A model generated the notes under the pieces. That model had not been told where the DNA came from. It worked only from the letters and a program-made list of their open reading frames with translations, and did not search any database. Position numbers and translations under genes: made by a program. From the NCBI GenBank assembly GCA_029256575.1, contig JAQSXR010000017.1:1-42881 (forward strand): a stretch of 42,881 nt of DNA, written 5' to 3'. The stretch comes from Clostridiales bacterium. Lineage in GTDB: Bacteria; Bacillota; Clostridia; Lachnospirales; JAQSXR01. Below, piece after piece: positions 1,365 through 15,155 of the stretch (position 1 is the stretch's first letter; every line of letters starts with the position of its first letter).

Positions 1365-1727
1365 ATGGGATTTAGAGAAGTGAAAGCAGAGGAATTAAGT
1401 ATTAATCCATTTACATTAATCGGGAAAGAATGGTTACTAATAACCGCAGGGACAGAAAATGCATTTAATACAATGACTGCAAGTTGGGGTGGGTTAGGTG
1501 TGTTCTGGAATAAAAACGCAGCTACGATTTATGTAAGACCAACGCGTTACACAAGAAAATTTGTTGATGATAATGATACATTTACAATATCTTTTTATAA
1601 GGAAGAGTATCGAAAAGCACTTGCACTTTGTGGTAAGGTCTCAGGAAGAGATGTAAATAAAGTGGAACAGGCAGGGTTAACTCCTGTATTTGAAGATAAT
1701 GCAACATATTTTGAAGAAGCTGGATAA
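1365..1727 (+). pseudogene. Flavin reductase-like protein, C-terminally truncated
   Basis: The 120-aa product matches the first two thirds of the flavin reductase-like FMN-binding split-barrel family: TMTASWGGLG (residues 37-46), then YVRPTRYTRKF and the CGKVSGRDVNK region. As I recall the family, members are about 165 aa and continue after the FEEA segment with a beta-strand region completing the barrel. Here the frame stops right after FEEAG with two consecutive TAA codons, and a perfect terminator hairpin begins 3 nt later. About 45-55 residues are therefore missing. A ribosome-binding site (GTGAGGT) precedes the ATG. A short functional variant is possible, but loss of barrel strands makes a decayed gene more likely. 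Confidence 0.7.
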
Positions 1728-1730
1728 TAA

Positions 1731-1765
1731 AAAAAGCTTAGTGGCCTGAATCCACTAAGCTTTTT
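1731..1765. terminator. Bidirectional rho-independent terminator
   Basis: A perfect 14-bp stem containing AAGCTTAGTGG, with a 7-nt loop, is flanked by A5 on the left and T5 on the right. It works in both directions and separates the convergent flavin reductase remnant and niaX. Confidence 0.85.
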
Positions 1766-1833
1766 GAAATTTTATAGTTCATTAAATATTATTTACTAAA
1801 TGGCTTTTGATTATTACTTAATAGTTTTGAGTA

Positions 1834-2361
1834 TTACGAATTAATAGTTTTAGTTTTTTTAGTTGTTGAACCCGAACCAAATTTAATAACAGATTTTAAT
1901 GGTTGCCAGATAGCTTGTGATATTCCAAAGCCTGAATCATAGAAACCAGCACTTAGACGTGTGCCAAAATAGAAAGATGCAACGATAGCAACTTCACACA
2001 ATGCGTGAAGGATAGCTAATCCAAAGGAAAGCATAGTAGCTTTTGAAAATGAATTAAGGATATCCGGTTTCTTTAATAATACAAATCCTCCAACAGAAGC
2101 AAACACTACATGTGTTAATGCACGAAGAACGATAACGATAGGGAAACCACCTAAAAAGAATCCTAATGTAGTACCAAGTGAAACGATGATAGCAGTAGAG
2201 GGAGAGATAAACATAGCAATAAAAATTGCAACATGGCTTGCTAATGTAAAGGATGCCGGCTCTATTTGAATTTTAAAGGGAGATACCAAAGGTATAATAA
2301 TTCCTATTGCAGAAAGAAGGGCAGCGGCTACTAATTTGTAAGTTTGATTTTTACGATTCAT
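1834..2361 (-). CDS. niaX: NiaX, substrate-binding (S) component of a niacin ECF transporter
   Basis: This is a small, very hydrophobic protein with about five to six membrane segments and the general shape of ECF-transporter S components. Such proteins bind a vitamin and work with a shared energizing module (EcfA/A'/T) encoded elsewhere. The niacin assignment rests on context: the gene directly before it encodes NiaR, and the known pair is niaR-niaX. I start at ATG 2361 (175 aa). A possible TTG start at 2379 would overlap the GAAAGG ribosome-binding site that sits 10 nt before ATG 2361. The C-terminus is Ser/Thr/Lys-rich (GSGSTTKKTKT), which is unusual for an S component. It could be another vitamin S component, but linkage to NiaR makes niacin most likely. 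Confidence 0.8.
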   Translation of the reverse strand: MNRKNQTYKLVAAALLSAIGIIIPLVSPFKIQIEPASFTLASHVAIFIAMFISPSTAIIVSLGTTLGFFLGGFPIVIVLRALTHVVFASVGGFVLLKKPDILNSFSKATMLSFGLAILHALCEVAIVASFYFGTRLSAGFYDSGFGISQAIWQPLKSVIKFGSGSTTKKTKTINS

Positions 2362-2458
2362 ATTGATCAGACCTTTCAATGTTTTTTGTTTTACTATTAA
2401 TTTAAAATAGTTTTTTTTATAATTATATGTAACAGAACATATTTAGACACGCATAAAA

Positions 2459-2496
2459 ATAGTCAAGCTAGGTGTCTTGACACCTGTCTTGACTAT
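2459..2496 (-). promoter_or_regulatory. 38-bp palindrome between niaR and niaX: probable NiaR operator and possible terminator
   Basis: The two 19-nt arms are reverse complements except at one 2-nt position and the central TT. The core is AGGTGTC-TT-GACACCT, flanked on each side by AGTCAAG/CTTGACT. On the minus strand it is followed by TATTTTTA, so the transcript could fold into a long hairpin with a short U-run, as in a terminator after niaR. It lies about 98 bp before the niaX start, where a repressor site for niacin uptake is expected. A related half-site (CTTGACAC on the minus strand) overlaps the niaR promoter. NiaR binding is inference from gene context. Confidence 0.65.
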
Positions 2497-2512
2497 AATA
2501 ATATAATGTTGT

Positions 2513-3040
2513 TTATTTGTCAAGTAAAATTCCCTTTTCTGACAATTTTTCTATAATCCTATAATATTGGTCCTCATTCACGCATCCAATGGTATGTAAG
2601 TGAATTCCATCCGTTAATTCTGATAGGGGGACCACATTTGACTTCTTAAATTTCTTAAGAAACTCCTCAACATCATGTCTCGTTGATATTTGTAGTTGAC
2701 CAGATATTTGACCATATACGGGATGATCTACAATTACATCAATGACTGTCCCACCATTATCAACAATAATAAATAATTCATCAGCTAAACTATCATTTTG
2801 ATGGTGCTTGCAAGCTATTGTTTTGTAAATCTTTGAATTAAGTAATTTGCTTGGTGATTGAAGGACATATCCACGTGGAGTTGCAATGATGTCTTCCCCT
2901 GATGCACGTAAAAGTGCAATATCTCCAACAACAATTTGCCTACTTACATCAAAATTATTTGCTAGTGTAGTCGCACTTACGGATTGTTCAGTATCTCTTA
3001 ATATGTTTATAATAGCATCTCGTCTCTCATTCGAAGTCAT
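2513..3040 (-). CDS. niaR: NiaR, niacin-responsive transcriptional repressor (HTH + 3H domain)
   Basis: The 175-aa protein has a winged helix-turn-helix at residues 5-60 (NERRDAIINILRDTE; TTLANNFDVSRQIVVGD) followed by a 3H domain. Candidate metal and ligand residues are His79/80, Glu88, His106, His147 and His149, matching the His-rich pattern that names the domain. The family represses niacin uptake and NAD synthesis genes when niacin is plentiful. The start is ATG 3040 with a GGGAGG site. It is the first gene of a niaR-niaX unit, and its own promoter (3085-3113) carries a half-copy of the downstream palindrome, which suggests autoregulation. Confidence 0.9.
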   Translation of the reverse strand: MTSNERRDAIINILRDTEQSVSATTLANNFDVSRQIVVGDIALLRASGEDIIATPRGYVLQSPSKLLNSKIYKTIACKHHQNDSLADELFIIVDNGGTVIDVIVDHPVYGQISGQLQISTRHDVEEFLKKFKKSNVVPLSELTDGIHLHTIGCVNEDQYYRIIEKLSEKGILLDK

Positions 3041-3084
3041 TTTAAACCTCCCAGTTAGTTATTTTATTAAAAAAGTATACTCTT

Positions 3085-3113
3085 ATTCTAAATAAGATAA
3101 TAGGAAGTGTCAA
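3085..3113 (-). promoter_or_regulatory. Promoter of niaR with an operator half-site
   Basis: On the minus strand TTGACA (3108-3113) is separated by 17 bp from TAGAAT (3085-3090). The -35 box is embedded in CTTGACAC, identical to a half of the niaR-niaX palindrome, so NiaR may compete with RNA polymerase here. Confidence 0.65.
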
Positions 3114-3158
3114 GGAAAAGAGACGGTATAAATAGTTATCGTTTCTATTAAGTTTTTA

Positions 3159-3215
3159 TTGACAGCGTAACAATGTTATGTTAAATTACATGTAATGGAA
3201 CAAAACATTGTTACG
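3159..3215 (+). promoter_or_regulatory. Promoter framed by a 12-bp perfect inverted repeat (likely autoregulatory operator)
   Basis: TTGACA (3159-3164) and TAAATT (3182-3187) are 17 bp apart. The arms CGTAACAATGTT (3166-3177) and AACATTGTTACG (3204-3215) are exact reverse complements, one inside the promoter spacer and one just after the start of transcription. The right arm ends 2 nt before the AAGGAGG ribosome-binding site of the regulator gene at 3234. This layout suits repression by a dimeric regulator, most simply the product of that gene. Confidence 0.65.
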
Positions 3216-3233
3216 TTAAGGAGGTTGCATGAG

Positions 3234-3908
3234 TTGATATCAAAAAAAGATTTGCTTGTTATGACTGGGATATCGTATGGACAGTTATACAGATGGAAAA
3301 GAGAAAAACTGATACCTGAAGATTGGTTTATAAAGCAACCATCATTTACGGGTCAAGAAACATTCTTCCCTAGGGATAAGATGTTAAGTCGTATTAAAGC
3401 AATACAAGAATTAAAAGACAAATATTCTTTAGAGGAACTCTCAAAGATACTTTCACCAGAAGTTGCAGAAAGAAGTTTTTCAATAGATGATTTGAGTAAA
3501 ATTTCAGAAATCTATTCTGGTTGGGTTACTGCATTTACAGAAGGCTTTGAGAAAAATAATTTTAACTATATTGAAGTAGTAATTATGGTTGCAATATCTG
3601 AGTTAAGAATTGATTGTGAAATACCTGTTAAGCAAGCATGTGATTTGGTGAGAGGCATAAGGGGGTTCTTAGATAAGATTAAGTCAACGGGATATATTTT
3701 AGTCATATTCGATATAGAAAGAGCCTATTATGCAAGTCTGTACCAAGAGCAAGCGACAATATTTATGGATAACAGATTTAGAATTGTTAAGGAAATTAGA
3801 TTAAATGATATTTCAAGTAAATTGAAAATTAAGTATAGAAATAAATTTAATTTTGAATTTTCAGATGAAGTGATTGATCAATCAAGTAAAGAATATTCAA
3901 GGGAATAG
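3234..3908 (+). CDS. YhbD-like regulator (DUF4004, MerR-type HTH)
   Basis: The protein begins ISKKDLLVMTGISYGQLYRWKREKLIP, a MerR/DUF4004-type helix-turn-helix, and continues with an alpha-helical region containing FPRDKML and SLEELSKILSPE. I choose TTG 3234 as start (224 aa): AAGGAGG lies 9 nt upstream, whereas the ATG at 3195 has no ribosome-binding site and falls inside the operator. From memory, Bacillus subtilis yhbD heads an operon with two bactofilin genes, and a bactofilin-like gene follows here by 12 nt. The likely role is local control of the solenoid genes downstream. The ligand or signal is not evident. Confidence 0.7.
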   Translation: MISKKDLLVMTGISYGQLYRWKREKLIPEDWFIKQPSFTGQETFFPRDKMLSRIKAIQELKDKYSLEELSKILSPEVAERSFSIDDLSKISEIYSGWVTAFTEGFEKNNFNYIEVVIMVAISELRIDCEIPVKQACDLVRGIRGFLDKIKSTGYILVIFDIERAYYASLYQEQATIFMDNRFRIVKEIRLNDISSKLKIKYRNKFNFEFSDEVIDQSSKEYSRE

Positions 3909-9943: not shown

Positions 9944-9968
9944 AAACATACTATAAATATATGAGATG

Positions 9969-10192
9969 TATGTTAAGAATAAGAGATATAAGAAGTAAGA
10001 GATATAAGAAGTAAGAGATATAAGAAGTAAGAGTTATTAAGAATAAGAGATATAAGAAGTAAGAGATATAAGAAGTAAGGGATATAAGAAGTAAGAGATA
10101 TAAGAAGTAAGAGATATTAGATGTAAGGGATATAAGAAGTAAGAGATATAAGAAATAAGAGATATAAAAGATAAGAGATAGAAGTAATAAAT
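9969..10192. repeat. 16-bp purine-rich tandem repeat, about 14 copies
   Basis: The unit GATATAAGAAGTAAGA recurs with an exact 16-nt period (starts at 9985, 10001, 10017, 10049, 10065, 10081, 10097, 10113, 10129, 10145, 10161), with a diverged unit at 9969, 10033 and 10177. The plus strand is nearly free of C. The period is not a multiple of three, and plus-strand frames hit TAA repeatedly, so it is not coding there. The minus-strand open frame through it is a by-product of its composition. It fills most of the 533-nt gap between the ABC ATPase and the trans-sulfuration locus. Confidence 0.95.
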
Positions 10193-10284
10193 AATAAATA
10201 ATAGGAATTATTGTATGAGATAAATGAGAAGCACGAAGAATATTAGGCAGATGGAATCTGCGAAAGAATGGAGAGTGGCTATTA

Positions 10285-11324
10285 ATGAAAAAAGAAACAA
10301 GATTAGTACATGGCATAAAAGGATTTGATGAAAAAACAGGTGCAATAAGTTATCCAATTTACCAATCTGCAACATTTAGACATCCAGGACTAAATGTCAG
10401 TACAGGGTATGATCAACGGTATTTAAACTTTTTAAATCCGGCGATCATATACTTTTATCCGAAGACCTATACGGTGGTACACATCGTATTTGTAATGAAA
10501 TATATGCTGGTTATGGAATAGAGATAGAATATGTGGATACTTCCAATTTAGAATTAGTTAAGCGGTGTATAAAAGAAAATACAGCAGCTATATTTATTGA
10601 AACTCCATCTAATCCAATGATGTTTGTTAGTGACATTGAAGAAATATCAAAACTTGCAAAGAAAGTAAATGCATTACTAATTGTAGATAATACTTTTTTA
10701 TCACCATACTTCCAAAAACCAATCAGTTTAGGTGCGGATATAGTTGTTCATAGTGGAACCAAGTATTTATGTGGTCATAACGATGTAATAGCAGGGTTCT
10801 TAATTACTGGAAGTAATATACCAAAGGAAACAACAAGGATAGAGTTAATATATAAAACTGAGGGTGCGATACTATCCCCTTTTGATAGTTGGCTTATGAT
10901 TAGAAGCATAAAGACATTAGGTGTTAGGATGGAAAAGCAACAAGAGAATGCTTTGATTGTTGCAAAATGGTTAAAGAGTGTTCCTACTGTTAAAGAGGTA
11001 TACTATGTTGGATTACCAGAACATGTAGGGTATGAAATTAATAAAAAGCAGGCACTTGGATCTGGAGGAATGATATCATTTCGCGTTACGAACAAGGAAA
11101 TAGCACAAAATGTTTTATCAAAAGTTAAGTTAATTTACTATGCAGAAAGTTTGGGGGGAGTTGAAACACTAATAACTTATCCAATATCTCAAACTCATGC
11201 AGAATCACCTAAGTATTTACTTGAGAAATTAGGTGTTGATAATTGTCTTTTGAGACTTTCTATTGGTATTGAGAATGTTGAAGACATAATAATAGACTTA
11301 GAACAGGCATTAAGAGAAGTATGA
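10285..11324 (+). pseudogene. Broken cystathionine gamma-synthase/lyase-type PLP enzyme
   Basis: Two open frames are pieces of one Cys/Met-metabolism PLP enzyme. The first (10285-10521) starts normally with [21 protein letters not shown]. The second is in a different frame and carries the PLP-lysine motif SGTKYLCGHND and the C-terminal domain. The frame changes at 10438-10442, where NPGDH is spelled with one base missing; downstream the correct frame reads [16 protein letters not shown]. Between STGYD and NPGDH only about 8 residues remain where the family has about 45-50 (the YSRxxNPT and SSGMAA region that binds PLP phosphate). So there is both an internal deletion and a one-base frameshift. 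Before decay it would have acted in methionine/cysteine interconversion. Confidence 0.85.
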
Positions 11325-12609: not shown

Positions 12610-13740
12610 ATGAACGATAATAATATGATATTAGATCAACGCGATGTAGATAATTTTTGGCATGGTTGGATCTTGGAAGAACTAATTGAACAGACAACTT
12701 GCGAAAGAGTATACAAAGCAAAAAACATCGAGACCTATTCTATAATTAAAGTAGTTAATGTTCCTGAGGACGATACAAAAATAAATGAAATGGTGATACA
12801 GGGTAAGGCGGATAAGTATATTGAGGCATACATAGAAGACTGTGCAATCGATATGCTAAATGAAGTTAAACTTATAGAGTCTCTAAAAGCATGCAAATAC
12901 ATTGTATCAAATAGGGCTTATAAGATGGTCCCTAAAGCTAGCAACATGGAGTGGAAAGTATATACAAGAACAGAGTACGTTGTGAAATTCAACATAATGA
13001 GTTTGCTTAAGAAACTTGAAATATTTGATGTATTGAAGTTAGGAATTGACATATCTAAGGCTTTAGAATATTGTGAAAAATTAAAAGTAATTCATGCTAA
13101 CATTAACTTGAATAATATATTTGTAGCAGAGGATGGAGATTATAAATTAGGACAATTTTCGATACCAGACAATCAAAGAAAAATCCCACTAAAGAAGAAA
13201 ATAATAAGAAATGAAGAAATGGTTGCGCCTGAAGTATTGCTGAATCAAAATTATTACTATTCTGTTGATACGTACTCTTTAGGAAAAGTATTGTTGAGTC
13301 TTTTGAATACATATCGTTTGAAAATAAGCGATGAACTTTTACAAATCTTGAATAAAGCAACTGAACTTAAGCCAGAAAATAGATTTGAAAAAGCGTATGA
13401 ACTAAGACAAGCACTTGAAGAAGTGAATCGTCAGTTGTTAACTGAATTAAATAGTGAAGTAACAAAAAAACCAGAAATTCAAGATATAGCACCAAATTCT
13501 CAAACGACAGCACCAATCCAACCAGAACTTCAAGTTATAGCACCAAACCCTCAAATTATAAAACCAGAACCCCAATATATAGAACTAAAATCTCCAATAC
13601 TTGATGTGATTTCAGAACTACAACCTGAATTATTTGGAGTAGAGAATGAAAAACTTCAGATAAAAGAAATTGATGTTCCTAAATTTATTAATAATATCGA
13701 TATAGTAAATTTAGAGAGTCCCCTAAAAAAACTGTTGTAA
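12610..13740 (+). CDS. Ser/Thr protein kinase-like pseudokinase domain protein
   Basis: Residues 17-280 follow the layout of bacterial Hanks-type kinases. They keep the VAIK lysine (Lys47), the alpha-C Glu85 and an APE motif (206-208). Catalytic motifs are lost: the Gly-rich loop reads EQTTCERVY, HRD is HAN (162-164), and DFG is QFS (182-184). Clostridial relatives I recall read HRDIKPENIF and KLGDFGIA here. It should therefore not phosphorylate normally and may act as a scaffold. A Pro/Gln-rich linker (repeated APN-Q, PEPQ) follows. The frame ends at 13740, right after an A7 run. The -1 frame continues into a basic juxtamembrane segment, a transmembrane helix and PASTA domains, so the two frames probably belong to one 848-aa protein. 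Confidence 0.8.
   Translation: MNDNNMILDQRDVDNFWHGWILEELIEQTTCERVYKAKNIETYSIIKVVNVPEDDTKINEMVIQGKADKYIEAYIEDCAIDMLNEVKLIESLKACKYIVSNRAYKMVPKASNMEWKVYTRTEYVVKFNIMSLLKKLEIFDVLKLGIDISKALEYCEKLKVIHANINLNNIFVAEDGDYKLGQFSIPDNQRKIPLKKKIIRNEEMVAPEVLLNQNYYYSVDTYSLGKVLLSLLNTYRLKISDELLQILNKATELKPENRFEKAYELRQALEEVNRQLLTELNSEVTKKPEIQDIAPNSQTTAPIQPELQVIAPNPQIIKPEPQYIELKSPILDVISELQPELFGVENEKLQIKEIDVPKFINNIDIVNLESPLKKLL
13725..13731 (+). other. Candidate -1 frameshift site A_AAA_AAA linking pseudokinase and PASTA frames
   Basis: Seven As are positioned so that zero-frame codons AAA AAA fill the last six bases, the X_XXY_YYZ arrangement for -1 slippage. The zero frame stops two codons later (CTG TTG TAA). 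The -1 frame reads on as TVVSRTIELKRKNEEKRKK and then a transmembrane helix. A weak purine stretch (AGAGAG, 13713-13718) lies upstream. I see no clear downstream hairpin. A simple one-base mutation is the main alternative. Confidence 0.5.
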
Positions 13741-15155
13741 GTAGAACCATTGAATTAAAAAGGAAAAATGAAGAAAAAAGAAAGAAAACTCAAATAATAT
13801 ATATTACTTGGGCAATTAGTATGGTTGTAATCGTTATTCTAGCGTTTATGACTCCTAGAATTCAAAATTTAGTAAATAAAAATAAAACAACGAAAGCAAA
13901 TAATGAAATAGCAAATACAATAACAACAACCAAAACTCAAGACAATGTAGAAGATACAGGAGTTACTGATAATACAGGGAATACAGATAATTCAGGGAAT
14001 ACAGATAGTTCAGGAAATACAGATAATTCAGGGAATACAGATGATTCGGGGAATACAGATAATTCAGGAAATACGGTTGATGATAGTTCAACCAATAGCG
14101 AAACAGAAGCACCAATTGTTCCTAATATGGTGGGGATTACCGGTGCTGAGGCTATAAAAGCTGCGGAAGATATAGGCTTAGTTGTTGCAATTACAAGCGA
14201 AAATAGTAGTACGATTCAAAAAGATTATGTTATTTCTCAAAGTGTAAAAGAAGGAACAATTCTAAAAAAAGGTGATTCGATTAATATCGTAGTCAGCTTA
14301 GGCAAGACTGGTACGAATGGTACTACAGTAAAAATGCCAAATTTAGTTGGTATGACGCGAGAAGTTGCTGAGCAGACACTAAAAACATTAGGATTAAATA
14401 TAAAGTATGTAGAAAGATATGATGATAAGGTAAAGCTTGGATTGATCGTAAATCAATGGGTTAATATAGGTGCGGAAACAACAGTTGGATCAACTGTAAC
14501 TGCGGTTATTAGTCTTGGAAAAGAGGATATTTCTGAATGGTCAGAATGGACAACTTCTTTACCACAAGGAATTACTTCTGATACTTATGCTATAGAGAAT
14601 GTAGTAAAATACCAATATAGAGATAAGGAAATAAAAACTTCTTCTGAAAGTACAATATCCGGATGGATAAAATATGATTCTGGTTTTGCTTGGACTGAAT
14701 GGAGCGATTGGTCAACGACACCTAGTGAGGTAGTTAATAATAGAGAGTATAGTCAAAGAAATGTTGAAGATAAGCACAACAGAATAATATATAAATATTC
14801 AAGATGGGCATACGTTGATAACAATAATAATATTTCTTATAGTTATACTGACTTAAAAGGTACAGATTATAAAAGCGGTGGAGAATGGCAATATACAAAA
14901 AATGAAGATAGTGCTTTAGCTAAAGTAGGAACATTAGGTAATCAAACGAAATACACTGGAAGTTGGTTTAACCAAGAAAAAACAGAAGAATACTCATATT
15001 CTACATACCACCCAGAATACCAGCACAGAGATTATGTAAATACAAACTATTTCTATCGCTGGTCTATATGGTCTAATTGGAGTGATACAGTAGTAAAAGC
15101 ATCGGATACAAGGGAAATTAACACCCAGAAAATGTATCGCTACAAATTGAAATAA
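13731..15155 (+). CDS. Transmembrane PASTA-domain protein, -1 frame continuation of the kinase-like gene
   Basis: The frame is open from 13695, but its first ATG (13821) lies inside the transmembrane helix and has no good ribosome-binding site, so independent translation is unlikely. Order of parts: basic juxtamembrane segment; membrane helix (IIYITWAISMVVIVILAF); Asn/Thr/Gly/Ser linker of six-residue repeats; two PASTA domains (VPNMVGITGAEAIKAAED and MPNLVGMTREVAEQTLKT, each ending in VVSLGK or AVISLGK); and a C-terminal region with three WS-x-W clusters. PASTA domains of PrkC/StkP kinases bind muropeptides or beta-lactams outside the cell. Fused to the upstream frame this would be a PrkC-like receptor with a dead kinase domain. 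Confidence 0.75.
   Translation, partial: TVVSRTIELKRKNEEKRKKTQIIYITWAISMVVIVILAFMTPRIQNLVNKNKTTKANNEIANTITTTKTQDNVEDTGVTDNTGNTDNSGNTDSSGNTDNSGNTDDSGNTDNSGNTVDDSSTNSETEAPIVPNMVGITGAEAIKAAEDIGLVVAITSENSSTIQKDYVISQSVKEGTILKKGDSINIVVSLGKTGTNGTTVKMPNLVGMTREVAEQTLKTLGLNIKYVERYDDKVKLGLIVNQWVNIGAETTVGSTVTAVISLGKEDISEWSEWTTSLPQGITSDTYAIENVVKYQYRDKEIKTSSESTISGWIKYDSGFAWTEWSDWSTTPSEVVNNREYSQRNVEDKHNRIIYKYSRWAYVDNNNNISYSYTDLKGTDYKSGGEWQYTKNEDSALAKVGTLGNQTKYTGSWFNQEKTEEYSYSTYHPEYQHRDYVNTNYFYRWSIWSNWSDTVVKASDTREINTQKMYRYKLK
13967..14069. repeat. 18-bp coding tandem repeat in the extracellular linker
   Basis: About six near-perfect copies of an 18-nt unit (AATACAGATAATTCAGGG) encode NTDNSG repeats between the membrane helix and the first PASTA domain. 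Because the unit is a multiple of three, copy changes alter linker length without breaking the frame. Confidence 0.9.

Follow-up and report, generated by a model that had tools for sequence, protein, structure and literature searches.

A pseudokinase-PASTA receptor gene split at a phased A7 run: probably an indel or assembly error rather than programmed frameshifting

The window studied here is a 42,881-nucleotide stretch of DNA from a Clostridiales bacterium (assembly GCA_029256575.1, contig JAQSXR010000017.1, forward strand). It contains a gene that is divided between two overlapping reading frames: an upstream frame that encodes a predicted pseudokinase and a downstream, -1 frame that encodes a membrane helix and PASTA domains. 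The two frames meet at a run of seven As (A7). The break is most likely an indel or an assembly error within an A-run that encodes lysines in a pseudokinase-PASTA receptor gene, with an assembly error being less likely than a one-nucleotide slip in the run. The original prediction had raised programmed slippage at this site and had acknowledged mutation of one base as a serious alternative; given the homologues, the other broken genes and the absence of stimulators described below, mutation is now the preferred reading.

The zero-frame ORF spans 12610–13740 (forward strand) and encodes 376 amino acids, comprising the pseudokinase and a disordered linker. Its 3′ end reads CTA AAA AAA CTG TTG TAA. 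This places the A7 run, which is the site of the frame break, at 13725–13731 (forward strand) in the phase A_AAA_AAA, with the stop codon (TAA, 13738–13740) two codons past it, just as had been claimed from the sequence. The -1 frame is open after a TAA at 13692–13694 and extends from 13695 to a stop that ends at 15155 (forward strand). It contains no ATG, GTG or TTG upstream of the ATG at 13821, which is its first and which sits within the membrane helix; the prediction that this frame lacks a usable start is thereby confirmed. A_AAA_AAA at 13725–13731 is a heptamer of the X_XXY_YYZ type in zero-frame phase inside the two-frame overlap. Read-through translation with a -1 slip at this site joins both halves into a continuous protein of 848 amino acids, also as predicted.

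The domain content supports an origin of both halves from a single gene. Pfam places a kinase domain 5′ of the junction (PF00069, E 4e-15) and PASTA domains 3′ of it (PF03793, E 4e-26, in two stretches). In addition, hexamer-based coding scores, trained on the source genome, were compared over the 28 codons that separate the zero-frame stop from the first ATG: the -1 frame scores +4.4 and the other two -4.2 and -19.8. Only the -1 frame is coding-like in this interval, which suggests that the two halves once formed a single frame. Apart from the frame break both appear intact, and no second lesion was found.

The pseudokinase domain was defined by alignment with 32 homologues and comprises about residues 20–285 (12667–13464, forward strand). 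In this alignment, the Gly loop is replaced (EQTTCE versus GEGSFG), the catalytic Asp is gone (HAN for HRD), as is the metal-binding Asp (QFS for DFG), and a segment of approximately 33 residues is missing after residue 239. The beta-3 lysine (Lys47), the catalytic-loop Asn and the APE motif are kept. An AlphaFold model has a pLDDT above 90 across most of the kinase domain and below 50 for most of residues 304–376, that is, this region is predicted to be mostly disordered. The top PDB fold match of the kinase model is Mycobacterium tuberculosis PknB. Judged by alignment and model, the product of 12610–13740 is a predicted bacterial pseudokinase in which the kinase fold persists and the catalytic residues are lost, and the earlier assignment holds. 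It looks like a long-diverged pseudokinase with a retained fold, and consequently catalysis was most likely lost well before the frame was broken. The break itself, we infer, is recent. A catalytically active PASTA Ser/Thr kinase was considered and is ruled out by the EQTTCE, HAN and QFS motifs; furthermore, kinase, helix and PASTA domains occur together only in the read-through product and not in one frame.

The -1 frame contains a membrane helix, IIYITWAISMVVIVILAFM, read from the sequence at 13794–13850 (forward strand), and a basic juxtamembrane segment lies N-terminal to it. The PASTA domains follow at 14115–14513 (forward strand), about residues 129–261 of the -1 frame when numbering starts at 13731. 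The NCBIfam model NF033483 aligns to -1-frame residues 11–261 and the PASTA region has PDB matches to 3py9 and 3m9g. The translation then continues into a Trp-rich C-terminal region (14526–15152, forward strand) containing SEWSEWT, WTEWSDWS and WSIWSNWSD, for which no Pfam family scores above cut-off.

Close relatives of this gene were sought widely. A scan of 84,980 species genomes returned no close orthologue, the sole matches being in Alteromonas at approximately 30% identity. Neither the order- and class-wide samples (about 390 genomes each) nor plasmids yielded a close orthologue, and the same holds at family level, where the source genome is the only member of its family in the collection searched. 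The best matches in the order and class samples span the kinase domain only, at 36% identity or less. The comparison set comprised 40 kinase frames (E up to 1e-17), which are distant homologues of 24–36% identity and not orthologues. In 32 of these 40, the kinase is followed by a predicted membrane helix without a change of frame; of the remaining eight, two (L058 and L060) are broken too and L041 has a weaker in-frame hydrophobic stretch. Eight of the 32 have an in-phase A_AAA_AAN heptamer no more than 60 codons ahead of the helix, in an unbroken frame, and in three of these eight it is A_AAA_AAA. One of the eight, L054, has an in-phase A7 run 21 codons before the helix, a spacing close to that of the source locus, and is encoded in one frame; its -1 frame at the A7 reaches a stop after two codons. 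L054 (1486–2964, forward strand) is also a second pseudokinase of the group, with HKS for HRD and DQG for DFG. A second case of the pseudokinase/PASTA two-frame layout was found in none of the genomes searched. Since the homologues are distant and not orthologues, their one-frame arrangement supports, short of proof, the case against programming. The position of the A7 can be explained by the basic segments that precede such helices, in which lysine codons, and hence A-runs, are abundant.

Stimulatory elements were looked for on both sides of the heptamer. A downstream RNA structure or a notable Shine-Dalgarno-like element upstream, which are usual though not obligatory in genes using -1 frameshifting, is absent here. 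Three downstream stretches fold no better than their shuffled versions (z +1.3, +0.5 and +1.6), in line with the earlier remark that no strong hairpin is visible. The frequency of such sites was determined in a 748-kb sample that includes the window, represents 24% of the genome and contains 687 coding-like ORFs. Against these 687 ORFs, in-phase A7 occurs 114 times, accounting for 114 of the 254 A7 runs in coding DNA, and there are 42 coding A8 runs; these counts indicate that the genome tolerates such sites. Downstream folding is as good or better at 111 of the 114 in-phase A7 sites (the source site included), and the upstream Shine-Dalgarno energy of -3.2 is equalled at 39 of them.

By chance, an in-phase A_AAA_AAA would be expected in a 46-nt two-frame overlap in about 0.8% of cases and any X_XXY_YYZ heptamer in about 9%. 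These figures do not separate programming from mutation because indels also fall in A-runs and 114 of the 254 runs share the phase. Shifting at A_AAA_AAA has been published: a seven-A version gave 10% shifting in one cassette (PMC3711429), and the heptamer is among the commonest at insertion-sequence frameshift sites (PMC4066793). Transcriptional insertions also occur in A-runs, more so as the run lengthens (PMC5574713). The authors of GeneTack, for whom a programmed site is one that is conserved in a cluster of five or more, attribute most frame breaks outside such clusters to indels or sequencing errors (PMC3711429).

The source genome contains additional broken genes. In the 748-kb sample, the clearest frame breaks without a start codon for the second part are the source locus, L078, L104 and L110. 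The gene in L078 (11315–13275, reverse strand) encodes a membrane hydrolase broken at a short palindrome, that in L104 (3–1314, reverse strand) a chemoreceptor whose MCP domain is spread over two frames, with a gap between Pfam positions 65 and 75, and that in L110 (8395–10571, forward strand) another frame-broken chemoreceptor. Of the four, only at the source locus does the break coincide with an A-run of seven. Closer by, 2 kb upstream of the pseudokinase, a cystathionine gamma-synthase-like (metB-like) gene (10285–11324, forward strand) carries a break as well: residues 1–44 correspond to the start of the family and the remainder is in another frame, which is consistent with an internal deletion. 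Real or introduced during assembly, these lesions make an ordinary indel more probable from the outset. In another genome, the related kinase of L058 (G341:C9; near bases 1494–3604 of the reversed locus, reverse strand) is broken at an A8 run inside the kinase domain, with a shift in the opposite direction.

Two other ORFs were observed upstream. A flavin-reductase-like ORF at 1365–1727 (forward strand) ends at position 104 of a 153-position Pfam profile and looks truncated. A repetitive ORF at 9951–10316 (reverse strand), in which YFLYLLLLISLTS is repeated, is probably a tandem DNA repeat and not a gene.

There are several ways in which the split arrangement could be explained. Were the shift programmed, by -1 ribosomal frameshifting or by transcriptional slippage, the gene would make mostly soluble pseudokinase plus a fraction of the 848-residue receptor, and the ratio would be functional. 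The correctly phased heptamer, the stop two codons on, the intact halves and the missing start of the PASTA frame all fit this idea, as do the 10% attained by A7 cassettes (PMC3711429) and the example of Escherichia coli copA, where a -1 shift yields soluble and membrane products from one gene (PMC5009743). It has to contend with distant homologues that are in one frame (32 of 40) and the lack of a conserved second case, with the absent downstream structure and Shine-Dalgarno-like stimulator, with a genome that does not avoid in-phase A7, and with several unrelated frame breaks nearby and elsewhere. Programmed shifting is thus judged unlikely and the predicted pair of programmed cytosolic and membrane forms is unsupported. 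We are equally doubtful of its functional corollary, namely that shifting at A_AAA_AAA would set the proportion of soluble pseudokinase to membrane PASTA receptor, with one message yielding both a sensor of the wall and a scaffold free in the cytosol. If the shift were programmed, the locus would join the few chromosomal frameshifts found outside mobile elements, and a single gene would give rise to a receptor and to its free cytosolic part in a new way; copA would be the nearest precedent.

Phase variation, in which the length of the A-run changes at replication and toggles cells between a membrane-bound and a truncated receptor, is very unlikely. Poly-A cases are known (PMC3711429), the receptor would be surface-exposed and its break lies in a homopolymer; yet seven As is short, and the 254 coding A7 runs make such tracts ordinary in this genome. 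The related kinase in L058 is broken at another A-run, but at a different position in the gene. The poorest candidate, to which we attach hardly any weight, is a pair of separate genes, one for a soluble pseudokinase and one for an independently started PASTA membrane protein. An AAAAAGG box does precede an ATG at 13768, but this ATG is in the third frame and starts a run of just 9 codons, and the PASTA frame itself offers no ATG, GTG or TTG until mid-helix. Moreover, the homologues are fused, and the -1 frame already scores as coding before its first ATG.

The preferred explanation therefore remains an indel or assembly error affecting the A-run, and the following course of events is proposed. 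The original gene would have encoded a membrane receptor consisting of a cytosolic pseudokinase, a basic juxtamembrane segment, a single membrane helix and extracellular PASTA domains. A one-nucleotide slip in the lysine A-run ahead of the helix would then have broken the frame. The main present product would be the soluble pseudokinase with its disordered tail, leaving the PASTA half without a usable start. Because ribosomes can slip at A_AAA_AAA, the full-length receptor may still be formed in some amount, and the published shifting at this heptamer makes such read-through plausible without implying selection. Several findings count against this explanation: an intact, one-frame form of the gene was not found among the genomes searched, the A7 is in the right phase and place (about 0.8% by chance), both halves are otherwise intact and A_AAA_AAA is truly slippery. 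Nevertheless, the likeliest lesson is one of caution. Where a genome is rich in A+T, finding a correctly phased A7 at a frame break says little in favour of recoding: lysine-rich segments next to the membrane bring A-runs with them, and it is in A-runs that indels fall.

The read-through product shares its kinase fold, one helix and extracellular PASTA domains with the PASTA Ser/Thr kinases (Stk1/PrkC/PknB, NF033483). It differs from them in the loss of the catalytic motifs and in its split frame, and the NF033483 scores of the source gene are 35.9 and 72 versus an NCBIfam cut-off of 450. A separate, 668-residue PASTA kinase is encoded on contig 60 of the same genome. The closest kinase sequences found (36% identity or less) belong to Lachnospirales-type kinase-linker-membrane receptors (L003, L004, L036 and others), some of which adjoin a PP2C phosphatase gene. 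These share the order of kinase and transmembrane segment; unlike the source gene, they are mostly active-looking, with HRD and DFG kept, and are in one frame. A local search detected no PASTA similarity in them.

The bacterial pseudokinase families ActPs, GLW, CP1, DYD and DLHK have been reviewed (PMC12599244), and PASTA is mentioned there in a cited title only. In them, too, the catalytic motifs are degraded and a membrane segment is often found C-terminal to the kinase, although the motif losses differ from those seen here. By their descriptions, two are set apart from the source pseudokinase: in DYD the beta-3 lysine, retained here, is replaced, and CP1 has no transmembrane regions (PMC12599244).

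A search of the literature yielded no soluble/membrane pairs that arise by frameshifting; copA came from a review (PMC5009743). The likeness to copA lies in soluble and membrane products arising via -1 shifting, which at the source locus is putative. The arrangement is reversed, however: in E. coli copA the zero frame encodes the membrane protein and the shift leads to the short product, whereas at the source locus the zero frame is the short one.
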